Part shown: one piece after another, positions 24,701 to 36,737 of the stretch
Layout of the letters: each line of letters opens with the position of its first letter
Position numbering within the stretch: position 1 is the first letter of the stretch
From: an uncultured Acidobacteriia bacterium
GTDB lineage: Bacteria; Acidobacteriota; Terriglobia; Bryobacterales; Bryobacteraceae
NCBI GenBank assembly: GCA_903929755.1
Contig: CAIYVZ010000080.1
Coordinates: 1 to 59,998, forward strand
Length of the DNA: 59,998 bases
Direction of reading: 5' to 3'
The notes under the pieces: generated by a model
What the model was told of the DNA's origin: nothing
Database searches by the model: none
The model's input: the letters and a program-made list of their open reading frames with translations, nothing else
Translations under genes and position numbers: made by a program

Positions 24701-25313
24701 GAAATCCCTGGTTGCCACCTCGCAGCCGATGCTTCTCGTGGTCGGCTTCAACTACGAAACCCCGCGCTTCACCACGAACAAGCTGGTGCGGAACACGGTG
24801 GGCGGGTGGACTTTGGGCGGCGTAGTCCGTTATGGCAGCGGTCTGCCGATTGCCGTTCCCGCCTCCACCGCCAACATGAGCGCCCTGGTATTTCAGAACA
24901 CCCGGATGAACCGGGTCTCCGGGCAACCCCTGCTCTTGAAGGATTTGAATTGCCATTGTATCGATCCAAACAAGGACTTCGTCCTGAATCCAGCCGCCTG
25001 GTCGGACGTGCCGCAGGGAACCTGGGGCTCGTCAGCGCCCTACTACAACGACTACCGGTTCGCCCGCCAACCGAGCGAACAGTTAAGTCTGGGCCGCATG
25101 TTCCGCGTCCGAGAGAAGTACCGTCTGCAGGTCCGCGCGGAGTTCTTCAACCTCTTCAACCGGATCGTAATGCCCAATCCCTCCGCGACCAACCCCCTGC
25201 AAACCCAGACCCGCAACAACGCCGGCGTGCCGACGGCTGGCTTTGGCCGGATCGATGCCACCACGGTCAGCGGCCAGCGTAACGGCCAGATTGTTGCCCG
25301 AATCGAGTTCTGA
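21768..25313 (+). CDS. Oar-like TonB-dependent receptor with carboxypeptidase-like domain
   Basis: A 1181-residue outer membrane protein. Signal peptide MRLATLLAALSLGLLTTSA; then a CarboxypepD-type beta-sandwich (GTITGTVLDPAKAVIPNATV, about residues 25-105); then a plug region (FVDGQDTTNNNDTT and SNFSAEFGQVAGG); then a long beta-barrel ending in IEF, a typical terminal aromatic for outer membrane assembly. These Oar/SusC-like receptors are greatly expanded in Acidobacteriota and are thought to import oligosaccharides or peptides. The start has a strong AGAGGAG site 6 bases before ATG. It is divergent from the AGE-epimerase gene. A 15-bp tandem repeat crosses its stop codon. Confidence 0.92.
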   Translation: MRLATLLAALSLGLLTTSAFAQSDHGTITGTVLDPAKAVIPNATVVVSNAETGSVYQAAATATGNFTVSSLPAGSYSVTVESAGFRKYIGQNVRVQVAQVTRLDVFMEVGAATESITVEGEAPQLKSDSVEASINVTGDRINALPLNFGGGGGNIGAMRAPLTFMVLSPGVSGSGTTGRVNGQAPNTYRVFVDGQDTTNNNDTTSTSGQPSVEMIEEFSLQTSNFSAEFGQVAGGMFTFATRSGTNSFHGSVYEYFNNEDLDARKPFVNTKPISRKHDFGFSLSGPVLVPKLYNGRNRTFFFINWEEFRNDISSTGSLNTVPTLAYRAGDFSGALTGRTLTGTDPLGRAIRENVVYDPKTNNVVSGRVVRDPFPGNVIPASRIDPVALKIQALIPLPDFGGSINNWNQAPKYNKISATPAIKIDHNINGSNKVSFYLNKNWSHTVANGQDGLPVPLTAFRDQRTYTYTTRLNYDSTLSPTLLLHAGAGFVRFLNPDSSPAGVLDYDAAGQLGFKGSATGGGFPRIAGLTSSQGGMFGMGPTNANYYWYGKLTVPLSVNWVHGNHSFKLGAEYRLESYTDRNTRGSSGVLNFTANETGLPSTQGQNLGGGGIGFPYASFLLGLVNNGTVNAPQDPQWRNSRWGLYFQDTWKIRRNVTLDYGMRWDLEDQGHEIWSRNSMFGPSVPNPSAGGLLGGMVYEGNGPNRCNCKFIPRYPYAIGPRLGVAWQIDKKTVLRAGWGVVYANLATYSYFTNSAILGVGIDQLSFTNANFGEPAITLKDGLIYNPADLRKVTLDPGGRPTPGSVSSPNYYLDPNAGRPGRIHQWNLSLQREVAKNLVVEAAYVGNRGAWLTGATGLVNLNALSDAKLASVGLDRTKPADIQVLTSTIASPLAVSRGFKLPYATFPTGQTVAQSLRPYPQFSSSLIPMWAPLGNNWYDSLQVKVNKRYSHGLDFTAAYTWSKELATGQAVNDAFNRPNQKSLVATSQPMLLVVGFNYETPRFTTNKLVRNTVGGWTLGGVVRYGSGLPIAVPASTANMSALVFQNTRMNRVSGQPLLLKDLNCHCIDPNKDFVLNPAAWSDVPQGTWGSSAPYYNDYRFARQPSEQLSLGRMFRVREKYRLQVRAEFFNLFNRIVMPNPSATNPLQTQTRNNAGVPTAGFGRIDATTVSGQRNGQIVARIEF

Positions 25314-25348
25314 CAGCTCGAGTTCGGACAGCTCGAGTTCGGATAATA
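25304..25348 (+). repeat. three 15-bp tandem repeats across the Oar stop codon
   Basis: Units start CGAGTTC at 25304, 25319 and 25334 and are separated by exactly 15 bases. The first contains the last Oar codons and its TGA. In the second the T of the stop position is G, giving GGA. Readthrough would add QLEFGQLEFG and then stop at TAA. The repeat sits directly before a ThuA relic, so it may mark a rearrangement junction. Confidence 0.85.
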
Positions 25349-25370
25349 AGGCTGCCCTGCTCCCCCTGGC

Positions 25371-25517
25371 CATGCCGTCTACCCGGTGATCTCCACCAAC
25401 CATTACAATGGCACCAGAGTGTTTGGAACGTCTCTCGGGCACGCCGAGACATGGAACGATCCTGTATTCCGGGCCATGACAGTTCGGGCATTCAAATGGA
25501 CGCTGAAAAAGGAATAA
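25371..25517 (+). pseudogene. ThuA-like domain relic, C-terminal 48 residues
   Basis: This plus-strand frame reads HAVYPVISTNHYNGTRVFGT, SLGHAETWNDPVFRAMTV, RAFKWTLKKE and then TAA. It matches the C-terminal end of ThuA-like (trehalose-utilisation, glutamine-amidotransferase-fold) proteins, with their G-R-V-F-x-T-x-L-G-H and W-N-D-P signatures. No start codon or N-terminal domain precedes it; the frame is bounded upstream by the tandem repeat. It ends 6 bases before the sugar isomerase gene, at the distance expected of a former operon partner. Too short for a working protein; best read as the 3' remnant of a deleted gene. Confidence 0.75.
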
Positions 25518-25523
25518 CCAGAG

Positions 25524-26363
25524 ATGAAGTTCGGAGCCAATACGTTTATCTGGTCGGCCGCATACGACCAGGCTGTTGAAGAAGTGCTGCCTCGCATAAA
25601 AGAGGCCGGCTTCGACGGCATTGAAGTGCCGTTATTCCGGCCTGCCGAGTTTCCGGGGGCAAAACTACAGAAAGCGTGTGCTGCGTACGGGCTGGAAGCC
25701 AACGTCTGCACCGTGCTGGTAGATGGCCTCACCCTGATCAGCGAAGACCCGGCGGTTCGCAGCAAAACCGTTACGCACCTGAAGGACCTGATCCGGACAG
25801 CGGCGGATGCGGGCGCGAAAATGATGGCCGGGCCCGTCTATTCACCAGTGGGTTATCTGCCTGGCCGTCGCCGGACAACGGACGAATGGAAATGGGCAAT
25901 TGAAGGGCATCAGCAACTGGGCGACACCCTGGCCGCGTACAATTTCACGATGGCGATTGAGCCCTTAAACCGCTTTGAGACCTTCTTCCTGAATACCGCC
26001 GCCGACGCGTTCGCGCTCGCGGAACAGATTGCGCATCCGAACGTGGGTATCCTGTTCGACACGTTCCACGCCAATATTGAGGAAAAGGATATTGCAGCCG
26101 GAATTCGGACCGTGGGGAAGCATATCAAGCATTTCCACAGTTGTGAGAATGACCGCGGGATTCCGGGCAGCGGCCATGTGGAGTGGGCCAGTGTATTCGC
26201 AGCGCTCCGTGACCTGGGCTACGACAACTGGCTCACGATTGAGAGTTTTGGGTTCGCCCTGGGGGATCTAAGTGCTGCCGCCGCCATCTGGCGCGATATC
26301 GAAACCTCGCCGGACTTGATCGCCTTCGAGGGAATTAAATTCCTGAAGAAGAACGTGGCATAA
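25524..26363 (+). CDS. sugar isomerase/epimerase, D-tagatose 3-epimerase-like
   Basis: A 279-residue TIM barrel of the xylose-isomerase-like family. The metal ligands of the D-tagatose/D-psicose 3-epimerase group appear in order: Glu in IEPLNRFETF, Asp in ILFDTFHANIEE, His in KHFHSCENDRG and Glu in LTIESFG. The N-terminus MKFGANTFIWSAAYDQAVEE also fits. It should epimerise a ketose at C3, in the cytoplasm. It follows a relic of a ThuA-like gene, often found with such isomerases in sugar loci, and the Oar receptor and AGE epimerase lie just upstream. The exact sugar is unknown. Confidence 0.88.
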   Translation: MKFGANTFIWSAAYDQAVEEVLPRIKEAGFDGIEVPLFRPAEFPGAKLQKACAAYGLEANVCTVLVDGLTLISEDPAVRSKTVTHLKDLIRTAADAGAKMMAGPVYSPVGYLPGRRRTTDEWKWAIEGHQQLGDTLAAYNFTMAIEPLNRFETFFLNTAADAFALAEQIAHPNVGILFDTFHANIEEKDIAAGIRTVGKHIKHFHSCENDRGIPGSGHVEWASVFAALRDLGYDNWLTIESFGFALGDLSAAAAIWRDIETSPDLIAFEGIKFLKKNVA

Positions 26364-26397
26364 CCATCCGGTTTCCCGCCTGGGCCGCGAAAGCGAT

Positions 26398-26428
26398 GAA
26401 CGCGGGCTTTTAAGCGGGCCCGCGGTTC
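26398..26428. terminator. probable hairpin terminator between convergent genes
   Basis: GAACGCGGGC pairs imperfectly with GCCCGCGGTTC (one bulged G) around a T/A-rich loop, between the ends of the sugar isomerase and the small heat-shock protein genes. The position fits a shared terminator, but there is no clear T-tract, so the call is tentative. Confidence 0.4.
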
Positions 26429-26441
26429 AGGCTCCGGGGCA

Positions 26442-26945
26442 TTAGGCAGTAGCAGCGCGGGCTTTGGCGGGAGTTGCTTCCGGCTCGGACGCGCCCACTT
26501 TTGGCAACTGCACGGTTATGATGCCGTCTTCCAAAGTGGCCGTCGCATGCTCAATATCCACCGGCGACTCAAACTCATAGCGCCGAAACAGCTGCTTACT
26601 GCTTTCGGAGTACGTGCCGCCCTCCGTGCTCTGCTGCTCCAACTTGCCGCAGACGGTAACGGAACGGGGCTCCAGAGCCACATCGAGATCGGCGGCGGTG
26701 AAGCCTGGCGCCGAGACCTTCAATGTGCAGGCCCCGTCGGTCTCGGATAGTTCACTTTCCGGAATCCGAAACAATTCCCGCTCAGCGGCGAGCCAGTCGG
26801 TGGCCGACGAGGCAGCGTGTTCATTGGTCTCGAACAGCGCATAGGCGCGATCGCGTATACGGGCCAAGGCCGACCCGACCGCGTCGAAGACGCCTTCGTT
26901 ACCTGGGTCATTCGGAGTAATGACTTTTACCATTTGCTTACTCAT
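26442..26945 (-). CDS. small heat-shock protein (Hsp20) fused to a DUF2934-like helix pair
   Basis: About 167 residues. The N-terminal part reads LARIRDRAYALFETN and then DWLAAERELFR, which fits the DUF2934 pattern (I-x-x-R-A-Y-x-L-Y-E ... D-W-L-x-A-E-x-E-L). An alpha-crystallin domain follows: CTLKVSAPGFTAADLDVALE, VTVCGK, LFRRYEFESPVD, ATLEDGIITVQLPK. Small heat-shock proteins hold unfolding proteins as ATP-independent chaperones. The C-terminus lacks a clear I-x-I motif and is Ala-rich. The ATG at 26945 has AGGAG 7 bases upstream. It lies 27 bases after the dksA-like gene, in one operon. A damaged paralogue lies at 27583-28224. Confidence 0.85.
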   Translation of the reverse strand: MSKQMVKVITPNDPGNEGVFDAVGSALARIRDRAYALFETNEHAASSATDWLAAERELFRIPESELSETDGACTLKVSAPGFTAADLDVALEPRSVTVCGKLEQQSTEGGTYSESSKQLFRRYEFESPVDIEHATATLEDGIITVQLPKVGASEPEATPAKARAATA

Positions 26946-26972
26946 ACGGATACTCCTCTTAAACGTCAATGA

Positions 26973-27344
26973 TTAAGCGGCCTCACGGGCCGCACTCTCT
27001 GCCAGCCCCTGGCAGGTGATGCAAAGCCGCGCCCACGGAACGGCGTCGAGTCTGCGGGCACCAATCGACTCCTCACATTCGGAGCAAATGCCGTAGGTGC
27101 CAGCCTGAATTCCTTCCAGCGCCCGCTGGAGGTCGTGAATCAGCCTGGCGCGGGCCTCCAGTTGCTGAACGGCGAGGTCCCTGTTGAAACCCGCCACCTG
27201 GTGTTCCATGGAATCGCCTCCAGGCTCCAGATTCAAATTGTCCCGGACTGAGTCGCTGCCCCCGCTTACCTCCACAAACTTACGCCGCAATGCAGCCCAG
27301 CGCACCGACATCTCAGAATCCGACCGTACTTCACTTTTAATCAT
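26973..27344 (-). CDS. DksA/TraR-family zinc-finger protein
   Basis: A 123-residue member of the DksA/TraR group, which bind RNA polymerase through its secondary channel and adjust transcription under stress. A helical N-terminal half (ARARLIHDLQRALEGIQ) leads to an intact four-Cys zinc finger: YGICSECEESIGARR, then RLCITCQ. The ATG at 27344 has GAGGAAGAGG just upstream; the longer open frame has no coding features. It is cotranscribed with the small heat-shock gene. The damaged paralogue at 28257-28628 has exactly the same length from its own ATG. A direct DksA role is unproven: the coiled-coil tip acidic pair of E. coli DksA is not obvious. Confidence 0.85.
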   Translation of the reverse strand: MIKSEVRSDSEMSVRWAALRRKFVEVSGGSDSVRDNLNLEPGGDSMEHQVAGFNRDLAVQQLEARARLIHDLQRALEGIQAGTYGICSECEESIGARRLDAVPWARLCITCQGLAESAAREAA

Positions 27345-27369
27345 GATCCTCTTCCTCGTATTGCTGCAA

Positions 27370-27459
27370 CTAATACTGCATAAAATACCGGGTAACATGT
27401 GCGCAAACGCTCGAAATACCCACGGTCCTGGCGATGAAAATGTCAAAGCCAGCGCACGG
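27370..27459 (-). pseudogene. response regulator relic (receiver C-terminus)
   Basis: The minus frame FDIFIARTVGISSVCAHVTR, YFMQY, stop aligns residue by residue with the end of the intact receiver at 28564-29046 (FDGFITKPVGSADLRAQVTA, YLRLQE). The active-site Lys of the K-P motif is lost (AR-T). A two-base frame break separates it from a preceding RALA that matches RALGSG. Beyond the stop, the next codons (LQQYEEEDHD) still echo the acidic tail of the intact copy. It lies directly before the DksA-like gene, just as the intact receiver precedes the second DksA copy. Confidence 0.7.
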
Positions 27460-27558
27460 TTGGGGTTCCCGTTGTGCGCCGGACTTGTGGAGATCGGCAA
27501 ATCCAGTGGAACCGCAGAGAGAAGGCCCTTTTTAGCGGCTGCCTCTCCGGTTCTTGTC
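27452..27558 (-). repeat. dispersed repeat, copy B (inverted relative to copy A)
   Basis: Read on the minus strand from 27558, GACAAGAACCGGAGAG is identical to copy A at 29118, followed by CTAAAAAGGGCC, CGGTTCC, TGGATT and GCCG with few mismatches. It then continues with CAAGTCC, GGGAACCC and AACCGT as in copy A. Copy A has about 50 extra bases in the middle. A stem of AACCGGAGAG with a partner further on (one mismatch here) is conserved, suggesting a structured RNA or DNA element. Confidence 0.7.
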
Positions 27559-27582
27559 CCCTGTTCCCGAAGAACACGTGGC

Positions 27583-28224
27583 CTAACCATCCGGCAGCGG
27601 CGAGTGGCACCCGTGCTCGCGAATGTGCTCCACCAGCATTTCCCAGGAGAGATCTTTGACCACTTGCGAGACCTTATCAGCAGAGAGAAGCGCATCTATT
27701 TTCAAGCTGGAGTACAGTACGATGAGGCGCATCTTTTCCTCGCACTCCTGCAGCAGACCGGGAACAAAAGCAAGGGGCGCGCACTCGCTGTTACACACTG
27801 GGCTGCACACTGGGTTACGCACTGGGCTGCACACTGGCGAGACCTGGCTGGAGTCGCTTCCCGTGCGGGTCGCCCCCACTTTTGGCATCCGCACAGTGAG
27901 GAAGCCGTTTTCCCAAGTGGCGGTGTCCCGTTCCGTATCCACCGGCGACTCAAACTCATAGCGACGAAACAGTGGCTCACTGCCTTCGGCGTAAGTCCCG
28001 TCCTTCGCATGCCGTTGCGCCACCTTCCCACAGACGGTAACGGAACAGGGCTCCACAGCCACCTCGGGAGCCTCAGCGATGGCCGGCGATGGGGCGTGCA
28101 CATTTGCCTCGAACTGCGCATCGGCTCGGTCGCGAATGCGAGTCAGGTCTGACGCGCTTTCGCTAAGAACGTCCTCGTTGGCTGGGTCATTCGGCGGGGT
28201 GACGATTACGATTCGCTTGCACAT
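27583..28224 (-). pseudogene. damaged small heat-shock paralogue with foreign C-terminus
   Basis: An open 213-residue frame, paralogous to 26442-26945: RIRDRADAQFEANVHA, then VTVCGKVAQ, LFRRYEFESPVDTERDTATW and LTVRMPKVGA. About 34 residues, covering the end of the DUF2934-like part and the first alpha-crystallin strands, are missing between SPAIAEA and PEVAVEP. After the crystallin domain comes a repeat-encoded VCSPV stretch and then an unrelated tail (LLQECEEKMRLIVLYSS ... EMLVEHIREHGC). The tail resembles a small acidobacterial hypothetical protein ending in H-I-x-E-H-G-C, a recollection that needs checking. The frame may still be expressed, but the chaperone fold should be broken. Confidence 0.65.
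27790..27837 (-). repeat. 24-bp tandem duplication made of 12-bp half repeats
   Basis: Four 12-base units alternate GTTACACACTGG and GCTGCACACTGG; the two 24-base halves differ by one base (A to G at 27819). The repeat lies in frame in the damaged heat-shock paralogue, encoding the VCSPV-type stretch, at the junction between the crystallin domain and the unrelated tail. Confidence 0.85.
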
Positions 28225-28256
28225 AGCGATGCCTGTCCTATGGTCCGGTAACTTCT

Positions 28257-28628
28257 TTAGTCCTGCGTTGACTTCCCTGGCAGCTTTGGCGGCAAAGCTC
28301 CGGGCAGGTAAGGCAAAGGCGAGCCCACGGCACGGCGTCGAGCCTCAATCGCCTGCTCACAAGGGGAGTAACTCCCATAGGTGCCGACGTGATTGCCTCC
28401 CAGCGCCAACTGGAGCTCGCTAATCAGCTTGTTGCAGGCCTCCAGTTGCCGGAGGGCGAGATCGAGATTCAAACCTGTAGCCCAACATTCCATGGAATCG
28501 CCTCCCTGTTTCAGATTTAACTTGTCCCGGACCGCCGCGCTGCCGCCTCGCACTTCGTCAAACTTACACTGCAACGAAACCCGGCTCACCGACAGCTGTA
28601 AGTCCGCTTGTACTTCCCGTGTAGTCAT
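28257..28628 (-). pseudogene. frameshifted DksA/TraR paralogue, zinc finger lost
   Basis: A 123-codon frame aligned to the intact DksA-like protein at 26973-27344 (VRDKLNLKQGGDSME, LALRQLEACNKLISELQLAL). The first CxxC reads YSPC, so one zinc Cys is gone. The frame then shifts: after AIEAR the proper continuation RLDAVPWARLCLTC is read in another frame, consistent with a net loss of about 8 bases. The resulting tail (SPLPYLPGALPPKL) is nonsense. A good GGAGG site precedes its ATG at 28628, inside the end of the response regulator gene (65-base overlap). The protein should not bind zinc. Confidence 0.75.
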
Positions 28629-29046
28629 CGTCCGCTTCCTCCGGTTGATCAAACTCCTGCAGCCTCAAATACGCCGTAACCTGTGCCCGAAGGTCCGCAC
28701 TTCCCACGGGCTTGGTGATGAAACCATCGAAACCGGAGCCAAGCGCCCGTTCACGATCTCCCTCCATGGCCGACGCCGTCAGCGCGACAACAAGAATCGT
28801 GGCTGTCTCCGGATTGCGGCGGAGTTCCCGCACCAGCGCGAAACCATCCAGAACCGGCATGCAAAGATCGAGCAGAACAAGAAAGGGCCTTCGCTCTAAA
28901 ATCACCTCGAGAGCTTCCAGCCCGTCGCCGACAGTTATAACTTCCACGTTCAGGCTGCCAAGAACAGCGCTGGCAAACTCACGCCCTGCAAGCTTGTCAT
29001 CGACAACCAGAATGGTCCGGTTGGGGTTGTGCGTTGGTATCTTCAC
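28564..29046 (-). CDS. single-domain response regulator (CheY-like receiver)
   Basis: A 160-residue protein that is almost entirely a receiver domain: RTILVVDDKLAGREF (acidic pair), LVLLDLCMPVLDGF (phospho-Asp about 60), VVALTASAMEGD and GFITKPVGS (Lys). There is no output domain; a short acidic tail (QEFDQPEEADDDYTG) follows. It starts with GTG inside the palindrome CTTCACGTGAAG. It is the first gene of the second RR-DksA-sHsp module, and the only intact receiver of the two copies. Its kinase is not identified; the CheB-CheR-kinase at 30621-35549 is nearby but has its own regulator. Confidence 0.85.
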   Translation of the reverse strand: MKIPTHNPNRTILVVDDKLAGREFASAVLGSLNVEVITVGDGLEALEVILERRPFLVLLDLCMPVLDGFALVRELRRNPETATILVVALTASAMEGDRERALGSGFDGFITKPVGSADLRAQVTAYLRLQEFDQPEEADDDYTGSTSGLTAVGEPGFVAV

Positions 29047-29052
29047 GTGAAG
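29041..29052. promoter_or_regulatory. 12-bp perfect palindrome over the regulator start codon
   Basis: CTTCACGTGAAG is a perfect palindrome whose central GTG is the start codon of the receiver gene. A factor bound here would cover the translation start. It could equally be chance. Confidence 0.35.
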
Positions 29053-29117
29053 TATCTGGCCTGACTCTAATGCCTGCGTAACGCCTTCTCCCTAATCCGC
29101 TCATGGGATGCTTGTGA

Positions 29118-29284
29118 GACAAGAACCGGAGAGCCTGCCTCTAAAAAGGGCCCTCTCTCTCCGGTTCCCTTGGATTGCCGGAAGCCCGCCTCCGACGAGG
29201 CCTCCCTTCCCAGGGTACGCACAACCCCCATCGGCATTACCGATTCCAACAAGTCCTGCGCGCTCCGGGAACCCAAACCGTTTG
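29118..29284 (+). repeat. dispersed repeat, copy A, with perfect 10-bp stem
   Basis: This copy has the stem AACCGGAGAG (29124-29133) and CTCTCCGGTT (29157-29166) around a 23-base loop containing CTAAAAAGGGCC. The blocks at 29118-29180 and 29240-29284 match copy B at 27452-27558 in inverted orientation. The roughly 60 bases between the blocks have no counterpart in B. It lies between the PEP-CTERM gene and the receiver gene. Confidence 0.7.
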
Positions 29285-29292
29285 CCCTCCGA

Positions 29293-29697
29293 CTAATCCC
29301 GCGGGCGAGACGAAGCATCCGACTTCCGCCTGAGCACCGGCACCGCTGCCAGGCTCAAGCCGATCACCACCAAACCCCAGGTTTCCGGCTCCGGTGTGGA
29401 GTCCGCGGAAGCGATGATTCTGGTGTTGCTGCAAGCATAGGACTCGCCGCCGACAGTTATATCCGCGCAGGAAGCCGTCTGATAGTTCCCGTAGCCGATC
29501 TGAATTTGATTGCTGTTGACAGAGAAGCCCTGGTCGAAATTGTCGACGCCAAAGACTATCTGGCCTGATCGGTCATCCTGGCCTGATCGGCAATCGATAA
29601 ACAACTCCGACCCCAAAAGTAGTGCCGCGTTGGCGGCGGAAGCCAGCAGCGCACCGAAAGCCAGCAGGGTGGCGGTGCGGATAACACTCTTGTTCAT
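29293..29697 (-). CDS. PEP-CTERM sorted exported protein
   Basis: A 134-residue secreted protein: signal peptide (TATLLAFGALLASAANA), a short beta-rich domain with Cys pairs (DCRSG, SCADI, YACSN), and a C-terminal sorting signal STPEPETWGLVVIGLSLAAV ending in VLRRK. PEP-CTERM proteins are anchored and processed by exosortase and are linked to exopolysaccharide and biofilm in other bacteria. No exosortase gene is in the window. A duplicated GGCCTGATCGG encodes the R-S-G-Q repeats near residue 40. The ATG has GGAGGAGAAACGGCA just upstream, an excellent start. Confidence 0.82.
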   Translation of the reverse strand: MNKSVIRTATLLAFGALLASAANAALLLGSELFIDCRSGQDDRSGQIVFGVDNFDQGFSVNSNQIQIGYGNYQTASCADITVGGESYACSNTRIIASADSTPEPETWGLVVIGLSLAAVPVLRRKSDASSRPRD

Positions 29698-29994
29698 TGC
29701 CGTTTCTCCTCCGCTACATCGGGTGAGCGGGAAAACAAACCTATCCTCCGATTGGCTTGCCTTCCGCGCTCGCGATGACTAGATTTGCCGGGGTGAACGT
29801 GAGCACCCTACGGCGTTAGGTACAAGGTACCTCAGAAAGAAGTCGCGGAATAGCTGGTAAAAGTACTAGGGTCTTTGGAGTGCACCAAAATATTGGGGCA
29901 GCCGATACGGTTTAATACGCGGCCCGAGGGCGCTGAATTCTGACTAAATAATCCGGCAGGTTTTACGCTTTTGTTACAACTCTGTGACACTTCT
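29698..29994. other. intergenic region upstream of the PEP-CTERM gene
   Basis: About 297 bases, more AT-rich than the neighbours, between the PEP-CTERM start and the end of the NarL-type regulator. No open frame or RNA gene was recognised. It must hold the PEP-CTERM promoter. Small direct motifs (GGTAC twice near 29819 and AAAGTACTAGGG near 29861) may be regulator sites, but I could not match them to a known factor. Confidence 0.5.
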
Positions 29995-30624
29995 CTAAAC
30001 CAGGTGCTGTTCCACGGCGTAGCGTGTTAATTCCGCAGTGGTTTTCAGGCCGAGCTTGCGTTTCAGATTGTCACGGTGAAAGGCCACCGTCTTGGTGGAA
30101 ATACTCATGATGTAAGCAATCTCTTTAGCCGCGCGGCCTTCGGCAATCAACTGCAGGCAGTGGCGCTCCCGGGCGGTCAACTCCACAGAGCCCTTGCCGT
30201 GAATAAGACTGGCGAAACGCTCGACATTTTCGCCAAACACGCTGGGCGTTACCCAGCTCCGGCCCTCCAACACTGCCTTCACGGCAAGCAGCAGTTCGGT
30301 ACCGGCCGCGGACTTGACTACATAGCCCACCGCTCCGGCATCCAGTGCGGCCGCCAGGTAGGCAGGGCTCAAGTGCATGGTGACGAAGATCAGTTTCACC
30401 TCCGGCCAGGCCTTGCGGATTTGGTTGGCCGCATCAATTCCGTTCAGGATGGGCATACCGATATCAACAATCAGGACATCGGGCCTGAGGCGGAGCGCCG
30501 CTTCCACCAGAGCCTGCCCGTCCGTTACAGTTCCAGCAATGTTGTAGTGTGGCTCCACGGCGGCGCGAATACCCGCCAACGTGAGCGGGTGGTCGTCGGC
30601 AATCAGAATATTGGCAGGGTTCAA
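29995..30624 (-). CDS. NarL/LuxR-family response regulator
   Basis: A 209-residue two-component regulator: receiver (ILIADDHPLTLAGIR, phospho-Asp about 54 in VLIVDIGMP, Lys in GYVVKSAAG) and a LuxR-type helix-turn-helix (VELTARERHCLQLIAEGRAA, then STKTVAFHRDNLKRKLG). It begins with TTG overlapping the TGA of the upstream kinase by 4 bases (TTGA), so it is translationally coupled and almost certainly the kinase partner. Targets are unknown; the PEP-CTERM gene next door is a candidate. Confidence 0.9.
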   Translation of the reverse strand: MNPANILIADDHPLTLAGIRAAVEPHYNIAGTVTDGQALVEAALRLRPDVLIVDIGMPILNGIDAANQIRKAWPEVKLIFVTMHLSPAYLAAALDAGAVGYVVKSAAGTELLLAVKAVLEGRSWVTPSVFGENVERFASLIHGKGSVELTARERHCLQLIAEGRAAKEIAYIMSISTKTVAFHRDNLKRKLGLKTTAELTRYAVEQHLV

Positions 30625-33600
30625 GCTGCCACCTCAGGGAGAACCGCGCGTTCGGGCGGAGGCGGGACCAGCGGGACTTCCAGACATAAACATGTACCGC
30701 CATCCGGGTTCGCCGTCACGGTGACGGTGCCCCCCGCCAGGTTGGCACGTTCCTGCAGGGAGATAAGCCCGAGGTGCCTGCCATTGGATACAGGGGGAGT
30801 GTAGCCCACGTCGTCCACCACAGACAGCCGGGCAACTCCCGCCTCCGCGGCGAGGGTGACCGTAGCGTGCTTCGCCCTGGCATGCTCCACCACATTCTGC
30901 AGGCCCTGTTGGGCCGTACGGTAAATACAGGTCCTCAGGTGGACGGGAATAGTGGCACCCTGCAGGGCCTCGGTGAAGCTAAACGAGGTTTCGCGGTACC
31001 TGGCCGAATAGTCGTGGCAGAGATCTTTCAGGCTCGGGACAAGGCCCAGATCGTCCAGGATAGAGGGGTGCATCTGGTAAGCGATCTTACGGGTTTCCTC
31101 GGCCACCCTGGCAATATGGACCTGCAAGGCTTTGAGCCGCTTTGGCATGTCACTGCCGGGGCCCGGTTTGGTGCGCATGGCGGTGATATCCATGGCGAGA
31201 GCCGCCAGTTGCTGGCAGATGTCATCGTGTAAATCCTGGGCGACTCTGCGCCGCTCGTCTTCCTGCGCGGTGAGGAGGCGGGAGGCAAGCGCCCGGATGG
31301 CGGAGTGGCTCACCTCCACGGCTAAGGCGAGTTGTTTGCGCTCCGTGATGTCCAGCATCACGCCGACGGCGCGTTCCCGGTTGCCGTTCGCGTCCCGCAG
31401 AACCTTGCCCCAGGCCGAAAGCCACCGGAGCGAGGGGCTGGCAACTGCCGTGGTGCGGAAGTCGAAGGCGAAGTTGCCACTGCCGTCGGACCGAAGATCC
31501 TTACTAAAGATGGAGCGAAGATTGGCCAGGTCATCCGGGTGAATTCTGGCGTCCTCCTCGGCCTCATTCACGTCGGCCTCCGGGGGCAGCCCCAACAAGC
31601 CTTTGGCAATGGCGGACCAGTTCCGTTTTCCGGTCGTGATGTCAAACTCGAAGGTCCCCATGCCTGTGTTTTCCAGAGCGAGCCGCACTTGAAGCTCGCT
31701 GTTATGGATAGCCTGCTCTGCATTCTTGCGCTCGGTTATTTTATGAAAAATAATGACCAGATAGGACGGTTCCGGACAATAAAGCGATAACGCGAGCCAC
31801 TCCCGGGTATAAATGAGAAAGTAGTCCAGGGTTTCGGGAACGCCGGACGAGGCCACCCTGCAAAAGGCCGCCAGCAAGCCCGGATCGCTTTCCCGAACCC
31901 CCGGAATCCCTTGCGTCAGCGTCATTCCGGGGATGCCCTGCAACCCGACGAGCTCTTCGAAGCGTTTGTTGACAGAAATAAAAAGGCAATCGGGACCGAC
32001 GCCAGCCTCCTCCACGATTCTGCAGTAAGCAACCCCTTCCTGCATGTTGTCAAACAGGCTGCGGTACTGAATTTCGCTTCGCTGCAGAGCCAACTCGGCA
32101 TCTTTGCGCACGGTAATGTCAGTGATGAACGCCACCGCGTGCTGTTCGCCATCAATCTCCGTGCCGCTCAGACTAACCTCGAGCGGGAAGGTAGTCCCAT
32201 CTTTGCGGCAGCCTGTCAGGGTAAGCCCCTGGCCCATGGGGCGGGTCTGAATATCCCTGAAATAAGCCCCGTGGCGCTCCACATGCGTCGGGCGGGAGCT
32301 TTCGGGAACCAGCATGTCCATCGGCTGGCCGAGGAGTTCCGCCGCGGAGTAGCCAAACAGGGTCTCCACCCTCTGATTGACAAAAGTGATGACGCCGTTC
32401 AGATCGCAGGCCAGAACGCCCTGGGGGCTGGCTTCCAGCAGCCCGTGTAAGGTGGCGGTGTGTTTTTCCGCTTCCGCCTGAAGCTGTTTCCGTTGCGAGA
32501 TATCGAAGTGGGAAACAACGACTCCCCCGCCCCCGGCCAGAAGGTGGTTAACAGTCATCACGAACCACTGCTTGGCCGTGGGAGAATTGCAGGGGTACTC
32601 CAGCGAGAAGGTCTCGCGACTCCTCGCCATCACCGAGCGAATCCCCGCCAGGGCCGCCTTTGCTTCGGGAACACCCTGCTCCGCTGCGTGCGCACAGACC
32701 TCCAGGTAGTTTGTACCCTCTCCGCCAAACGGCAAATCGAAGGTGCCGTGGAGGCTGCCAAAACTTCTCCAGGCTTCGTTGGTGAACTGGATGTCGCCGT
32801 TTGCATTCAGCACGGCGATTTGCGATCGCATGGAATTCAGAATGGACTGGCTGCGAAGTTCGGACAGGAGAGCGCTTTCGCGGGAGACTTGCGCCTCCTC
32901 AGTGGCAACTTTGAGACTGTTGACGTCCGACAGAACCACCAGAACCCCGGCCAGTTCCTTTTCGCGGATCGTGTAAGGACGAATGTGCAGCGAGAACCAC
33001 TTACCGCTGCGATCTCTTACATCGCGTTCGAAGGGCTGGCCTTCCTGCTTGACTCTGGCCACGATATCGCCCCAGTCCGGGACCTCGAGATTCGTGGCAA
33101 GCTGCGTAAAAGGCCGCCCAACATCGCCGGGAATCAGATTGAACACGGACGCGGCCACGGGCGTGAACCGGCGGACGCGGAGATCGGCGTCCAGCACGAG
33201 AATCGCGATATCGACGCCCACCAGAATGTTGCCCAGATCCTGGGTGAGGATGCTCAACTCGGCGTTTCTTTGGTGGAGTTCCTCGTTCAGGGTGATGAGC
33301 TCTTCGTTGGAGGACTGAAGTTCTTCTTTGGCTGTTTCGAGTTCCTCGTTGGTACTCTGCAGTTCTTCGTTGCCGGAGAGCACTTCCTCATTGGCGGCGC
33401 GCATCTCTTCCTGGGCTGCTTCGTGCTCGGCCACCAGCAAGCGTAACTGCTCGCGCGCGGAGACCAGTTCGCGCTCCACTCGCGCCGCTTTGTTCGTGAG
33501 TTGCCGGGCAGCCACGCCGGTAAGCGAGGCAGTGGCGGGCAGCAGTTGCGGGGCGATGGCGTTCTGGAACACCACCAGAAGGTCGAATTTACGGCCTGGC

Positions 33601-35549
33601 CGTTGGCGGAAAGGCCGAATCTCCAGGTTCACGGCTGCGGGTTTGCCGGAATCGTCGAACACCAGATCGTCCAGGCGGACGGGGAGACCCCGTTTCACAA
33701 CTTTGGCGATGGCGTCGCGCAGAACCACCACAAACTCGGGGCGAACCATCTTGAGCAGATGAAAGCTGGGCTGGCCGGTGGCGGGGGCCAGGTAGGGGCT
33801 GGTATTGCCCTGAAAATGGACGATCCGCAGGTCGGGCCCCACCACCACGGCCGCGGGCGTGTAGTGTTCCAGAAGACAGGCCTCAGTGCCGGCGCGGTAA
33901 TCGATCGCCGCGCTGGAGGTGAGGGTTTTGATGGCGGCGCTGCCCGGCAGGTGCGCCTGTTCCCCGAAAACGGGAAAACTTCGGGAGGCAGCGTTGATTG
34001 ATTTCCTGCAGAAGATGTGGTGGGGCTCATCTTCCGGGCTGAAGTGGGGCGACAACTCGCTGATGGATTCGGTATTACCCAGGAAAAGGCAGCCCCCGGG
34101 GTTCAGGGCGTATTGAAACGCCGAGAGGGCCCGGGCCTGTAACTCCGGGCCCATATAGATGAGCACGTTGCGGCAGGTGATGAGGTCGAGTTTGGAGAAG
34201 GGGGCGTCTTTGGCGAGATCGTGGCGGGCGAAGACGCAAAGCTCCCGCACGGATTTCTGGATCTGATAGCCGTGCTCGGTCTTCACGAAATAGCGTTTCA
34301 GGCGCGCCGCGGAAACATGGGCCACAGCGGCGGCAGAGTAGATGCCCGCCCGCGCCTTATTCACCGAGGCCTGTTGAATATCGGTACCAAAGATCTGGAT
34401 TTTAGTGGAGGCGGCCTGCTCGCGCAGCTCATCGAGCAGCAGGATGGCAAGGGTATACACCTCCTCGCCGGTGGAGCAGCCGACGACCCAGATGCGGACC
34501 GTGGCAGGCGCCCGGCGAACGCGCCACTTCGCCATCACTTTTTTCCGAAGGGCCAGGAAACAATCGGGATCGCGAAAGAAGCTGGTGACGGGGATGAAGA
34601 TGTCCTCAGCAAGCGCGGTAACTTCTTCGGGGTTCTGGCGCAGCAGTTTCGCGTACTGCGCAAGCGAAGTGACTTTCAGCAAGGCCATGCGGCGGCCCAC
34701 ACGGCGGCGAATGGTGGCCTGTTTGTAAAGCGGGAACTCAATCCCGGTAGCAGTGCGCAGGATGAGGCAAATTTTGTGAAGGTCAGTGCCCTCCGTTTCC
34801 TCCTGAGCGGGGGCCGTCACGTACGGGTGCCGGGCGAGACGCCCCAACTCGGCCGCGATACGTTTGGGCGAGAGGACATAATCGACCGACGCACCGGCGT
34901 TGAGAGGCATGGCGGGCCACTCGGCAGTCTTCGGATCCTGGGTGAAGGCGAGACCGCCGGCGGCCCGGATAGCTCTGAGACCGAGGGTGCCATCGGAGCC
35001 TGTGCCGGAGAGGATGACGCCGATGGCGGCGCTGCCCTGCTCGGCGGCGAGGGCGGCCATGAAGTCGTCAATCGGATAGTGAAGTGCGGGGTGCCGGAGT
35101 GCGGAATGCTGGAGCCCGAGGTGCTGAAGTGCGGGATGCGGGACCGCTCCCCGAAGGACGCGGGGGGCGAGACGGAGGGCACCGTCGCGGATGGTCATTT
35201 GCTTGTTGGGCGGAATGACGTAGACGTGATTGGGTTCCACGGCAAGGCCGTCGGTCACTTCCACGACGGGCATGGTGGTGGTGCGCGAGAGCAGGGTGGC
35301 CAGCGCGCTCTCGTGGGTGGGCTGCAGGTGCTGGATGAGAACGATACCCAGACCGGCTTTAGGTGACAGCGCGGAGAGTAGCTCAGTGAACGCCGCCAGA
35401 CCGCCGGCGGAGGCTCCGACCGCGACTACGGGAAACGGGAGGCGCGGGGTAAAGGGAACGGCCTCGGCCCCAGCAGGGACTACGTCCGCTGGCTTGCCTG
35501 GCCTGAGTTGCCGCGCGCGAGTTTTAGGAGCTGCGGATGCCTTTGCCAT
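30621..35549 (-). CDS. CheB-CheR-PAS hybrid sensor histidine kinase
   Basis: A 1642-residue soluble protein. CheB methylesterase domain (about 38-235) with catalytic Ser47 (GASAGG), His74 (QHL) and Asp186 (GTGSDG). CheR methyltransferase (about 275-500) with RRRVGRRM, WVVGCSTGEEVYTLA and LDLITCRNVLIYM. A long coiled coil (about 665-765, repeats of N-E-E-L). About five PAS domains. A HisKA_3 kinase domain (DERRRVAQDLHDDICQQLA) and a degenerate HATPase (VVDDVGYTPP where D-x-G-x-G is usual). No CheB receiver is present. It lacks membrane helices, so it senses in the cytoplasm. It pairs with the overlapping NarL regulator. A 15-bp repeat array inserts about 20 residues in the CheB part. Confidence 0.88.
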   Translation of the reverse strand: MAKASAAPKTRARQLRPGKPADVVPAGAEAVPFTPRLPFPVVAVGASAGGLAAFTELLSALSPKAGLGIVLIQHLQPTHESALATLLSRTTTMPVVEVTDGLAVEPNHVYVIPPNKQMTIRDGALRLAPRVLRGAVPHPALQHLGLQHSALRHPALHYPIDDFMAALAAEQGSAAIGVILSGTGSDGTLGLRAIRAAGGLAFTQDPKTAEWPAMPLNAGASVDYVLSPKRIAAELGRLARHPYVTAPAQEETEGTDLHKICLILRTATGIEFPLYKQATIRRRVGRRMALLKVTSLAQYAKLLRQNPEEVTALAEDIFIPVTSFFRDPDCFLALRKKVMAKWRVRRAPATVRIWVVGCSTGEEVYTLAILLLDELREQAASTKIQIFGTDIQQASVNKARAGIYSAAAVAHVSAARLKRYFVKTEHGYQIQKSVRELCVFARHDLAKDAPFSKLDLITCRNVLIYMGPELQARALSAFQYALNPGGCLFLGNTESISELSPHFSPEDEPHHIFCRKSINAASRSFPVFGEQAHLPGSAAIKTLTSSAAIDYRAGTEACLLEHYTPAAVVVGPDLRIVHFQGNTSPYLAPATGQPSFHLLKMVRPEFVVVLRDAIAKVVKRGLPVRLDDLVFDDSGKPAAVNLEIRPFRQRPGRKFDLLVVFQNAIAPQLLPATASLTGVAARQLTNKAARVERELVSAREQLRLLVAEHEAAQEEMRAANEEVLSGNEELQSTNEELETAKEELQSSNEELITLNEELHQRNAELSILTQDLGNILVGVDIAILVLDADLRVRRFTPVAASVFNLIPGDVGRPFTQLATNLEVPDWGDIVARVKQEGQPFERDVRDRSGKWFSLHIRPYTIREKELAGVLVVLSDVNSLKVATEEAQVSRESALLSELRSQSILNSMRSQIAVLNANGDIQFTNEAWRSFGSLHGTFDLPFGGEGTNYLEVCAHAAEQGVPEAKAALAGIRSVMARSRETFSLEYPCNSPTAKQWFVMTVNHLLAGGGGVVVSHFDISQRKQLQAEAEKHTATLHGLLEASPQGVLACDLNGVITFVNQRVETLFGYSAAELLGQPMDMLVPESSRPTHVERHGAYFRDIQTRPMGQGLTLTGCRKDGTTFPLEVSLSGTEIDGEQHAVAFITDITVRKDAELALQRSEIQYRSLFDNMQEGVAYCRIVEEAGVGPDCLFISVNKRFEELVGLQGIPGMTLTQGIPGVRESDPGLLAAFCRVASSGVPETLDYFLIYTREWLALSLYCPEPSYLVIIFHKITERKNAEQAIHNSELQVRLALENTGMGTFEFDITTGKRNWSAIAKGLLGLPPEADVNEAEEDARIHPDDLANLRSIFSKDLRSDGSGNFAFDFRTTAVASPSLRWLSAWGKVLRDANGNRERAVGVMLDITERKQLALAVEVSHSAIRALASRLLTAQEDERRRVAQDLHDDICQQLAALAMDITAMRTKPGPGSDMPKRLKALQVHIARVAEETRKIAYQMHPSILDDLGLVPSLKDLCHDYSARYRETSFSFTEALQGATIPVHLRTCIYRTAQQGLQNVVEHARAKHATVTLAAEAGVARLSVVDDVGYTPPVSNGRHLGLISLQERANLAGGTVTVTANPDGGTCLCLEVPLVPPPPERAVLPEVAA
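35081..35140 (-). repeat. four 15-bp repeats encoding an insert in the CheB domain
   Basis: Four degenerate 15-base units (each with a GAGTGCGG-like core) lie at 35081-35140 and encode about 20 residues (ALQHLGLQHSALRHPALHYP), roughly residues 137-157. Related CheB domains have a short loop here before the P-I-D-x-F motif. The unit is a multiple of three, so copy change keeps the frame. His-rich content may bind metal, but that is a guess. Confidence 0.75.
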
Positions 35550-35651
35550 GGCGATTCCATTACATCACATCCCGCCAGTAGGGGCCGTTATCGAATTCAC
35601 CCGATATGGCAGGGAGTCGAACGCGATAAACAGGGTGCCGTGCGGGCCGGG

Positions 35652-36737
35652 CTACGCGCGCAGGATAAGCTTCTTCCGCCACATCACCCACGCCACCCCA
35701 AACATGAGCGCGGTAAACGTGAGAGCCCACAGCAACGAGGCATTCGCGGGCGACCCCAGCGGCGCAAACACCGCCCGGTAGATCGGCTTGTGCAGCCCCG
35801 TATAACCCAGTACTTCTGACAAAGCCTCCGAAGCCATGTAAATCGCAATCGGATTCAACCCCATAATCACCAGCGGCTGCACCGGCTTCTTCATGCCCAG
35901 CACATCCACAACCCAGATGAAGCCAGAGAGCAGCACAAAATCCAGCCCCGCCATGAACAGCGCGAACGAACTCGTCCACAGCTTCTTGTTAATCGGCAGC
36001 CAAATATCGCAGATCTCACCGGCCACAAGCAACAGCACCCCGATGCTGAACATGCGGGTCAACCGCGTCGCCAGCGGCTTATCCCAAAGCAGCAGACGTC
36101 CGCACAAAGCCCCCATCAGCGCCGTCGCCACGGCGGGAATGGTGCTCACAAGCCCCTCCGGATCCCACGTCTTCGTCCCCCGGTAGTTATGCGCGCCCAG
36201 CACCACCCAGTCCACGAAATTTGCCAGATTGCTCTCCACTTCCAGGTGCCCCGCGCCAATGCCCGGTACCGGCACAAACGCCATCAGGGCCCAATAGACG
36301 GCCAGCAACCCCACACACCACACAATCTGCGCCCGCCACTTCGACGTCAGATTAATGGCCACCGCCGCCAGGTAACAGATCGCGATCCGCTGCAGCACCC
36401 CCAGAATGCGCTGCGTGGACAGATCAAACTTCGGAGCCGCGTACACCAGAAGCCCCAGCCCGAACAGAATGCAGGACCGCTTCACCGCTTGCCAGAACAG
36501 GTCCGCTTTTTTAAAGCCTTCCGCCAGGCGACGGTCCAGCGCCAGCGTCAGCGCCACGCCCGCGATCCACAAAAAGGAAGGGAACACCACGTCGGTGGGC
36601 GTCCACCCGTTCCACGCCGCATGTTCCAGCGGTGCGTACGAACTCTTCCCGTCGCCGGCGTTATTTACCAGCACCATCAGGGCCATGGTGGCCCCTCGAA
36701 AAGCATCCAGCGCAACGAATCTTTGCCGTTCGGCCAT
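35652..36737 (-). CDS. HGSNAT-like membrane acyltransferase (DUF5009/DUF1624 type)
   Basis: A 361-residue integral membrane protein with about ten helices. Its N-terminus RFVALDAFRGATMALMVLVN, followed by NGWTPTDVVFPSFLWIAGVA, is the signature of the heparan-alpha-glucosaminide N-acetyltransferase-like family, which acetylates sugars across membranes. ILGVLQRIAICYLAA is also conserved. It is the last gene of a four-gene operon, 19 bases after the preceding gene. ATG 36737 is preferred over the GTG just before. Substrate in bacteria is unknown. Confidence 0.85.
   Translation of the reverse strand: MAERQRFVALDAFRGATMALMVLVNNAGDGKSSYAPLEHAAWNGWTPTDVVFPSFLWIAGVALTLALDRRLAEGFKKADLFWQAVKRSCILFGLGLLVYAAPKFDLSTQRILGVLQRIAICYLAAVAINLTSKWRAQIVWCVGLLAVYWALMAFVPVPGIGAGHLEVESNLANFVDWVVLGAHNYRGTKTWDPEGLVSTIPAVATALMGALCGRLLLWDKPLATRLTRMFSIGVLLLVAGEICDIWLPINKKLWTSSFALFMAGLDFVLLSGFIWVVDVLGMKKPVQPLVIMGLNPIAIYMASEALSEVLGYTGLHKPIYRAVFAPLGSPANASLLWALTFTALMFGVAWVMWRKKLILRA

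Follow-up and report, generated by a model that had tools for sequence, protein, structure and literature searches.

We analysed a 59,998-nucleotide (nt) stretch of DNA from an uncultured acidobacterium of the Bryobacteraceae (contig CAIYVZ010000080.1; called the window here), on the minus strand of which a receiver gene, a DksA-like gene and a small heat-shock protein (sHsp) gene follow one another twice, in copies that we refer to as copy 1 and copy 2. The two sets arose by tandem duplication of an ancestral cassette, made up of a receiver, a DksA-like gene and an sHsp gene of the DUF2934 type, that lay beside a convergent epimerase gene. That the copies then underwent complementary decay is well supported. 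The complete account, in which the duplication was followed by complementary gene loss that left a single gene of each type apparently functional in a locus of ordinary stress protection, is in our judgement highly probable.

The repeated gene order had been proposed in an original prediction made from the sequence alone, and was confirmed when the two halves of the locus were aligned as DNA. Copy 1 and copy 2 are collinear, with 451 of 656 nt identical in one segment and 177 of 225 nt in a second (blastn, E = 9e-71 and 1e-50, respectively), a similarity far beyond chance. The direct-repeat families D1-D4 also link the two copies. In addition, the 3' end of the convergent epimerase gene (26340-26371) is repeated at 27564-27594, downstream of the sHsp gene of copy 1 (sHsp1), with 28 of 32 nt identical; the repeat search returned this match as 19 nt at 95% (D8). 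Since the duplicated unit includes the last codons of a neighbouring gene, the arrangement represents a true tandem duplication, and the repeat downstream of sHsp1 therefore fixes the right edge of the unit. Collinear homologous DNA and a common boundary scar are thus both present. The epimerase-like gene itself matched NF051856 (D-psicose 3-epimerase) with 169.7 bits, below the cut-off of 300. When a tree was built that included 26 further DksA rows, the DksA-like proteins of the two copies (DksA1 and DksA2) were sisters with support of 100/99, on branches of 0.75 for copy 1 versus 0.29 for copy 2, and the DksA of the related genome G234 was next to this pair (support 93/74). The duplication event itself is ordinary, but comparable groupings of these genes occur in a few relatives.

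Damage to copy 1 is seen in both the DksA-like gene and the sHsp gene. Counted from their ATGs (28628 for DksA1, 27344 for DksA2), both DksA frames span 123 amino acids. In DksA1 an 8-nt gap follows codon 94, and tyrosine replaces the first cysteine of the zinc finger; no Pfam match to the zinc finger (PF01258) was obtained, which places it outside the C4 family. DksA2 scored 48.7 bits against the same model (cut-off 24.9), as a member of the C4 family does, and 56.6 bits against TIGR02420, the DksA equivalog model, which is under the cut-off of 115.5 for DksA proper. DksA2 therefore resembles the DksA/TraR family in having a C4 finger and in fitting DksA models from residue 42 on, but differs from it in the sub-threshold equivalog score and in that its two best outside matches adjoin sHsp genes. 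When DksA1 was read past the gap in the frame of copy 2, 13 of the first 14 residues were kept, with five of six differences at third positions, and 14 of 19 residues were kept over 19 codons. The preservation of 13 of 14 residues and the third-position differences indicate that the frameshift is young relative to the duplication. Of the DksA columns that relatives conserve, six survive only in copy 2 and two only in copy 1, with 17 kept by both and 23 by neither, and the zinc-finger cysteines are kept in the seven DksA homologues of alignment A2.

In sHsp1, 102 nt (34 codons) are missing in frame, and a frameshift lies near the end of the crystallin domain. The HSP20 score of sHsp1 (PF00011, cut-off 20.8) was 16.3 bits, and it is thus not recognised by this model, whereas the sHsp of copy 2 (sHsp2) scored 39.3 bits and in addition matched DUF2934 (PF11154) with 23.3 bits. 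An AlphaFold2 model of sHsp2 (mean predicted local distance difference test score, pLDDT, 86.8) shows two helices (residues 16-40 and 47-58) followed, from residue 64 onwards, by seven strands, and the Foldseek list for this model was headed by small heat-shock and crystallin structures; sHsp2 is accordingly predicted to have a crystallin fold. It would share this fold with Hsp20/alpha-crystallin proteins but differ from them in its helical DUF2934 N-terminus, while in sHsp1 part of the domain is lost. The model of sHsp1 (mean pLDDT 70.1) lacks the second N-terminal helix, has one lower-confidence strand compared to two in sHsp2, and ends in a separate three-helix tail of low to moderate confidence. 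The DNA of this tail (27583-27840) contains imperfect 24-nt repeats at 27781-27828.

The segment missing from sHsp1 is present in all 15 other sHsp rows of alignment A1, and its residues D50, W51, A54 and G81 are invariant in the 31 rows of alignment A5. Of the sHsp columns conserved in relatives, five are kept by copy 2 alone and one by copy 1 alone, compared to 16 by both and seven by neither. A related sHsp on contig C77 of genome G013 (150 amino acids) has no DUF2934 match, and this does not amount to the same damage, because its crystallin domain scores well (42.4 bits). We found none of the damaged forms as a normal protein among the sHsp (A1, A5) and DksA (A2) homologues compared; as far as this comparison reaches, the damage to copy 1 appears to be particular to this locus.

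The receivers show the opposite pattern. The receiver of copy 1 (RR1) contains a complete receiver domain, with 77.5 bits against PF00072 (cut-off 30.2) over profile positions 1-110 of 111. RR1 has Glu131 at the position of the copy 2 stop codon, and residues 131-160 form a 30-residue read-through over the start of DksA1; its matches in relatives mostly finish by residues 125-139. The relic in copy 2 begins at the edge of a hairpin element, R2, and aligns with RR1 over 24 codons, with identity at 50 of 72 nt and, in translation, at 11 of 24 residues, a match that none of 20,000 shuffles equalled. Ratios of nonsynonymous to synonymous substitution (dN/dS) between the copies, which come from short segments and pool both lineages, were 0.94 for the relic, compared to 0.57 for the part of DksA that precedes the gap and between 0.17 and 0.47 for the sHsp segments. 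The copy 2 receiver thus appears to be a stub in neutral drift.

Most of what the original prediction had read from these genes stood: the equal length of the DksA frames, the frameshifted zinc finger of DksA1, the loss of crystallin strands from sHsp1 and the codon-by-codon match of the receiver tails were all borne out. Two details changed, as RR1, described as intact, has a complete domain but has probably lost its stop codon, and the relic, given as 30 residues, is slightly shorter at 26 residues and a stop. The proposal of duplication with reciprocal loss is backed by the alignment, the epimerase scar, the sister relationship of the DksA copies and the locus-specific damage. After the tandem duplication, the receiver of copy 2 would have been reduced to a remnant bordering the hairpin element, and in copy 1 the zinc finger and some of the crystallin domain would have disappeared; the substitution pattern indicates that the zinc-finger frameshift came late. 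RR1, DksA2 and sHsp2 would then be the set that still appears functional, one for each gene type, a part of the earlier claim that we retain from the sequences with the qualification that the same genome has further DksA-like, receiver and sHsp genes elsewhere. In the general process of duplication-degeneration with complementary loss, tandem copies lose different genes and leave relics in the right places, as they do here. The present case differs in that a three-gene cassette of an uncultured acidobacterium is involved, and selection for complementary retention is only putative.

This last point bears on the most serious alternative, namely that decay is one-sided and ongoing: all of copy 1 would be dying, RR1 included, copy 2 would merely have lost its receiver, and no selection for complementary retention would be needed. 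The probable loss of the RR1 stop codon and its long branch (0.94) fit this alternative, and the long branch also weighs against complementary decay, as RR1 may be drifting too. The genome also encodes another receiver of the RR1 family, 50% identical to RR1, in a receiver-NtrC operon. Against this, RR1 keeps its full receiver domain, in which what we take to be the acidic pair, the phospho-acceptor aspartate and the conserved threonine and lysine can be read. We consider one-sided decay possible but clearly the less probable course.

Copy 1 might alternatively have been reshaped and not decayed, with sHsp1 fused to a helical tail and a DksA1 devoid of its zinc finger acting as new working proteins (neofunctionalisation). 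The copy 1 frames are still open, dN/dS of the sHsp segments is below 1, and the modelled three-helix tail ends in a sequence that resembles a short stretch in one of 60 relatives searched (G016:C586, E = 0.002). However, the low dN/dS values pool both lineages, DksA1 lost a zinc cysteine and then its frame, the HSP20 score of sHsp1 is under the cut-off, and copy 1 alone loses more of the conserved columns in both proteins. The ribosome-binding sequence of sHsp1 also looks weaker by eye than that of sHsp2. Neofunctionalisation is therefore improbable in our view.

Separate acquisition of two cassettes, with no tandem duplication, would suit the large divergence of the copies (synonymous divergence, dS, of approximately 0.4 to 1.0 by segment) and the inverted hairpin elements that flank copy 1, but the DksA copies are sisters against all 26 other rows and the 3' end of the epimerase gene was copied with the unit, so that we give this idea very little credence. 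A chimera or indel errors in what is a 212-contig draft genome would be the least credible explanation of all, as a difference of about 20 to 30% between the copies, with codon structure, is not the product of misassembly and the epimerase scar fits a biological junction.

Table 1. Positions of the cassette copies and surrounding features in the window.
Feature	Position	Strand	Basis
Convergent sugar epimerase-like gene, last codons co-duplicated	25524..26363	+	NF051856 match
Copy 2 sHsp (sHsp2), DUF2934 N-terminal helices, intact, 167 amino acids	26442..26945	-	PF00011, PF11154
Copy 2 DksA/TraR-type zinc-finger protein (DksA2), intact, 123 amino acids	26973..27344	-	PF01258, TIGR02420
Copy 2 receiver relic (C-terminal 26 residues, then stop)	27370..27455	-	Codon alignment with RR1
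Hairpin element R2, junction between copies	27456..27558	.	
Remnant of the epimerase 3' end, co-duplicated, bounding copy 1 on the right	27564..27594	.	Match to 26340-26371
Copy 1 sHsp (sHsp1), 34-codon in-frame loss, then frameshift into unrelated tail of ~95 residues	27583..28224	-	
Copy 1 DksA-like (DksA1), zinc finger frameshifted by 8-nt gap, first zinc Cys = Tyr	28257..28628	-	
Copy 1 receiver (RR1), CheY-like single domain, GTG start	28564..29046	-	PF00072; alignment with copy 2
Hairpin element R1, in the opposite orientation to R2, upstream of copy 1	29118..29281	.	
LuxR-type response regulator, upstream	29995..30624	-	PF00072, PF00196
CheB-CheR-PAS histidine kinase, 1642 amino acids, adjoins LuxR regulator	30621..35549	-	Pfam

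R2 is a shortened as well as inverted relative of R1. No further copy of either element was found in the same genome, and in 18 congeners the search picked up nothing beyond two weak hits of 22 and 30 nt in G013 (E = 0.01 and 0.08). We therefore rejected the possibility that they represent a dispersed mobile repeat. Rfam gave no match at the gathering score in 25000-36000, and no sigma-70-like promoter site was found in 26300-30050. A dedicated sigma-54 promoter was likewise rejected: sigma-54-like matches in the window numbered seven versus 11.3 expected from shuffles, with none at the cassette.

The original prediction had further suggested that a receiver wired to a transcription modulator and a chaperone may be an unnamed stress circuit, and had called for a search for the same gene order in relatives. 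Outside the window, none of the loci annotated, many of which are truncated by contig ends, showed receiver, DksA and sHsp in this order on one strand, and this part of the suggestion is weakly supported. The association of the genes nonetheless recurs beyond pure chance. We chose 42 loci from sHsp matches, with 45 related sHsp genes, and recorded neighbours within 2.5 kb: universal stress protein genes lay near 13, receiver-model matches near five (single-domain in two) and DksA near three, compared to 0.09 expected for DksA (Poisson p = 1.2e-4) when the expectation was summed by hand from 141 DksA matches in ~350.7 Mb. A search of the 237 genomes of the family with DksA2 as the only query found matches at E = 1e-19 or better in 18. 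The best outside matches, G235:C42 (E = 1.4e-25) and G234:C253 (4.1e-25), both adjoin an NtrC-type (sigma-54-type) regulator and an sHsp gene. In G234 the regulator, sHsp and DksA lie within 3.3 kb. In G235 a receiver 44% identical to RR1, an NtrC gene, an sHsp and a universal stress protein gene stand in a row, with DksA in the opposite direction, all within 4.7 kb; the three kinds of gene are thus together there in a different arrangement. Pfam confirmed HSP20 neighbours in two of 20 DksA loci (G235 and G145).

RR1 is one of a family of short receivers. Of 20 loci of this family that were fetched, 17 have an adjoining NtrC-clade gene (Pfam was used to check the sigma-54 domain only in the members from G234 and G235), and six have a universal stress protein gene within the stretch. 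The window shares this receiver family with the kinase/CheY-like receiver/NtrC-type operons of the same bacterial family but differs from them in having no adjoining NtrC gene, and DksA and sHsp genes follow RR1 instead. The upstream pairing of kinase and LuxR regulator was seen again in several of 40 kinase loci. Related pairs have LuxR homologues 64% (G007:C10), 62% (G013:C77) and 59% (G076:C34) identical. At G013:C77, in a genome listed at 10% contamination, the pair is accompanied by two sHsp genes and an RR1-family receiver. A conserved kinase-receiver-DksA-sHsp operon was rejected as a fixed arrangement, as only four of the 40 kinase loci had a DksA match and two an sHsp-model match, one of 74 amino acids. 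Between RR1 and the LuxR regulator in the window (29293-29697) there is a short possible PEP-CTERM protein gene with Pfam and NCBIfam scores below the cut-offs.

Several observations, together with the missing same-strand order and the hand-summed expectation, weigh against a recurring neighbourhood. The three DksA cases among 45 sHsp genes are not independent, because G030 and G251 inherited the pair together; two independent cases give p = 0.004. Most related sHsp loci have no DksA or receiver, and a contig scan of 80 loci gave a DksA match in only two, apparently identical to the G234 and G030 records. The next two DksA2 matches, G083:C11 (7.0e-25) and G226:C35 (1.4e-24), are only slightly weaker and have no sHsp in the stretches fetched. 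The G235 sHsp is of another type, since it has no DUF2934 match. The G013:C77 kinase has only 641 amino acids and no CheR match, and no single-domain receiver of the RR1 type, DksA or sHsp was present in the 18.5-19.5 kb around the kinase-LuxR pairs of G007 and G076, which are about as closely related to the pair in the window. By title, we found no paper on such a cluster in the literature on DksA and small heat-shock proteins in Acidobacteriota, and nothing related in that on DUF2934 and heat shock.

Other small genes were noted in these loci. Two sHsp-model matches, at L354:6878-7231 between DksA and an NtrC-like gene (G115) and at L084:10537-10911 after an NtrC-type gene (G008), were DUF2934-only by Pfam; they are not chaperones and were not counted. 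A family with no Pfam match at E = 0.01 (L172:2284-2844, minus strand, and L070:2702-3160, plus strand; 44% identical between G234 and G005) stands beside a DUF2934-type sHsp in both loci and by eye has the look of a degenerate receiver. Tandem pairs of DUF2934-type sHsp genes occur at L063:1721-2863 (G013) and L065:9129-10361 (G009), beside what by eye is a zinc alcohol dehydrogenase-like gene.

The idea of a fixed circuit of receiver, DksA and sHsp is not well supported, and we read the locus as a loose, recurrent neighbourhood of stress genes that was duplicated here and then eroded by half. What is known of the families, together with the genes nearby, suggests how such a set might operate. 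The CheB-CheR-PAS kinase and LuxR regulator would sense stress, the receiver may tune or buffer this phosphotransfer, DksA2 would modulate RNA polymerase during starvation or stress, and sHsp2 would hold unfolding proteins; ordinary stress protection is the most likely job of the cassette. More tentatively, a receiver or NtrC-type regulator, a DksA-like protein and an sHsp might recur as a stress neighbourhood among Bryobacteraceae-like Acidobacteriota, with both an RNA polymerase-binding modulator and a chaperone under the control of a two-component signal and the present locus as a duplicated and complementarily eroded case; we hold this wider proposal to be doubtful as yet.

The locus offers a clean, small example of a bacterial tandem duplication in the midst of complementary decay, in which the order of some steps can be read. 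The finding that the nearest relatives of its DksA-like protein lie beside sHsp genes and sigma-54-type regulators hints at how the control of transcription may be coupled to the protection of proteins in a phylum that has received little study.

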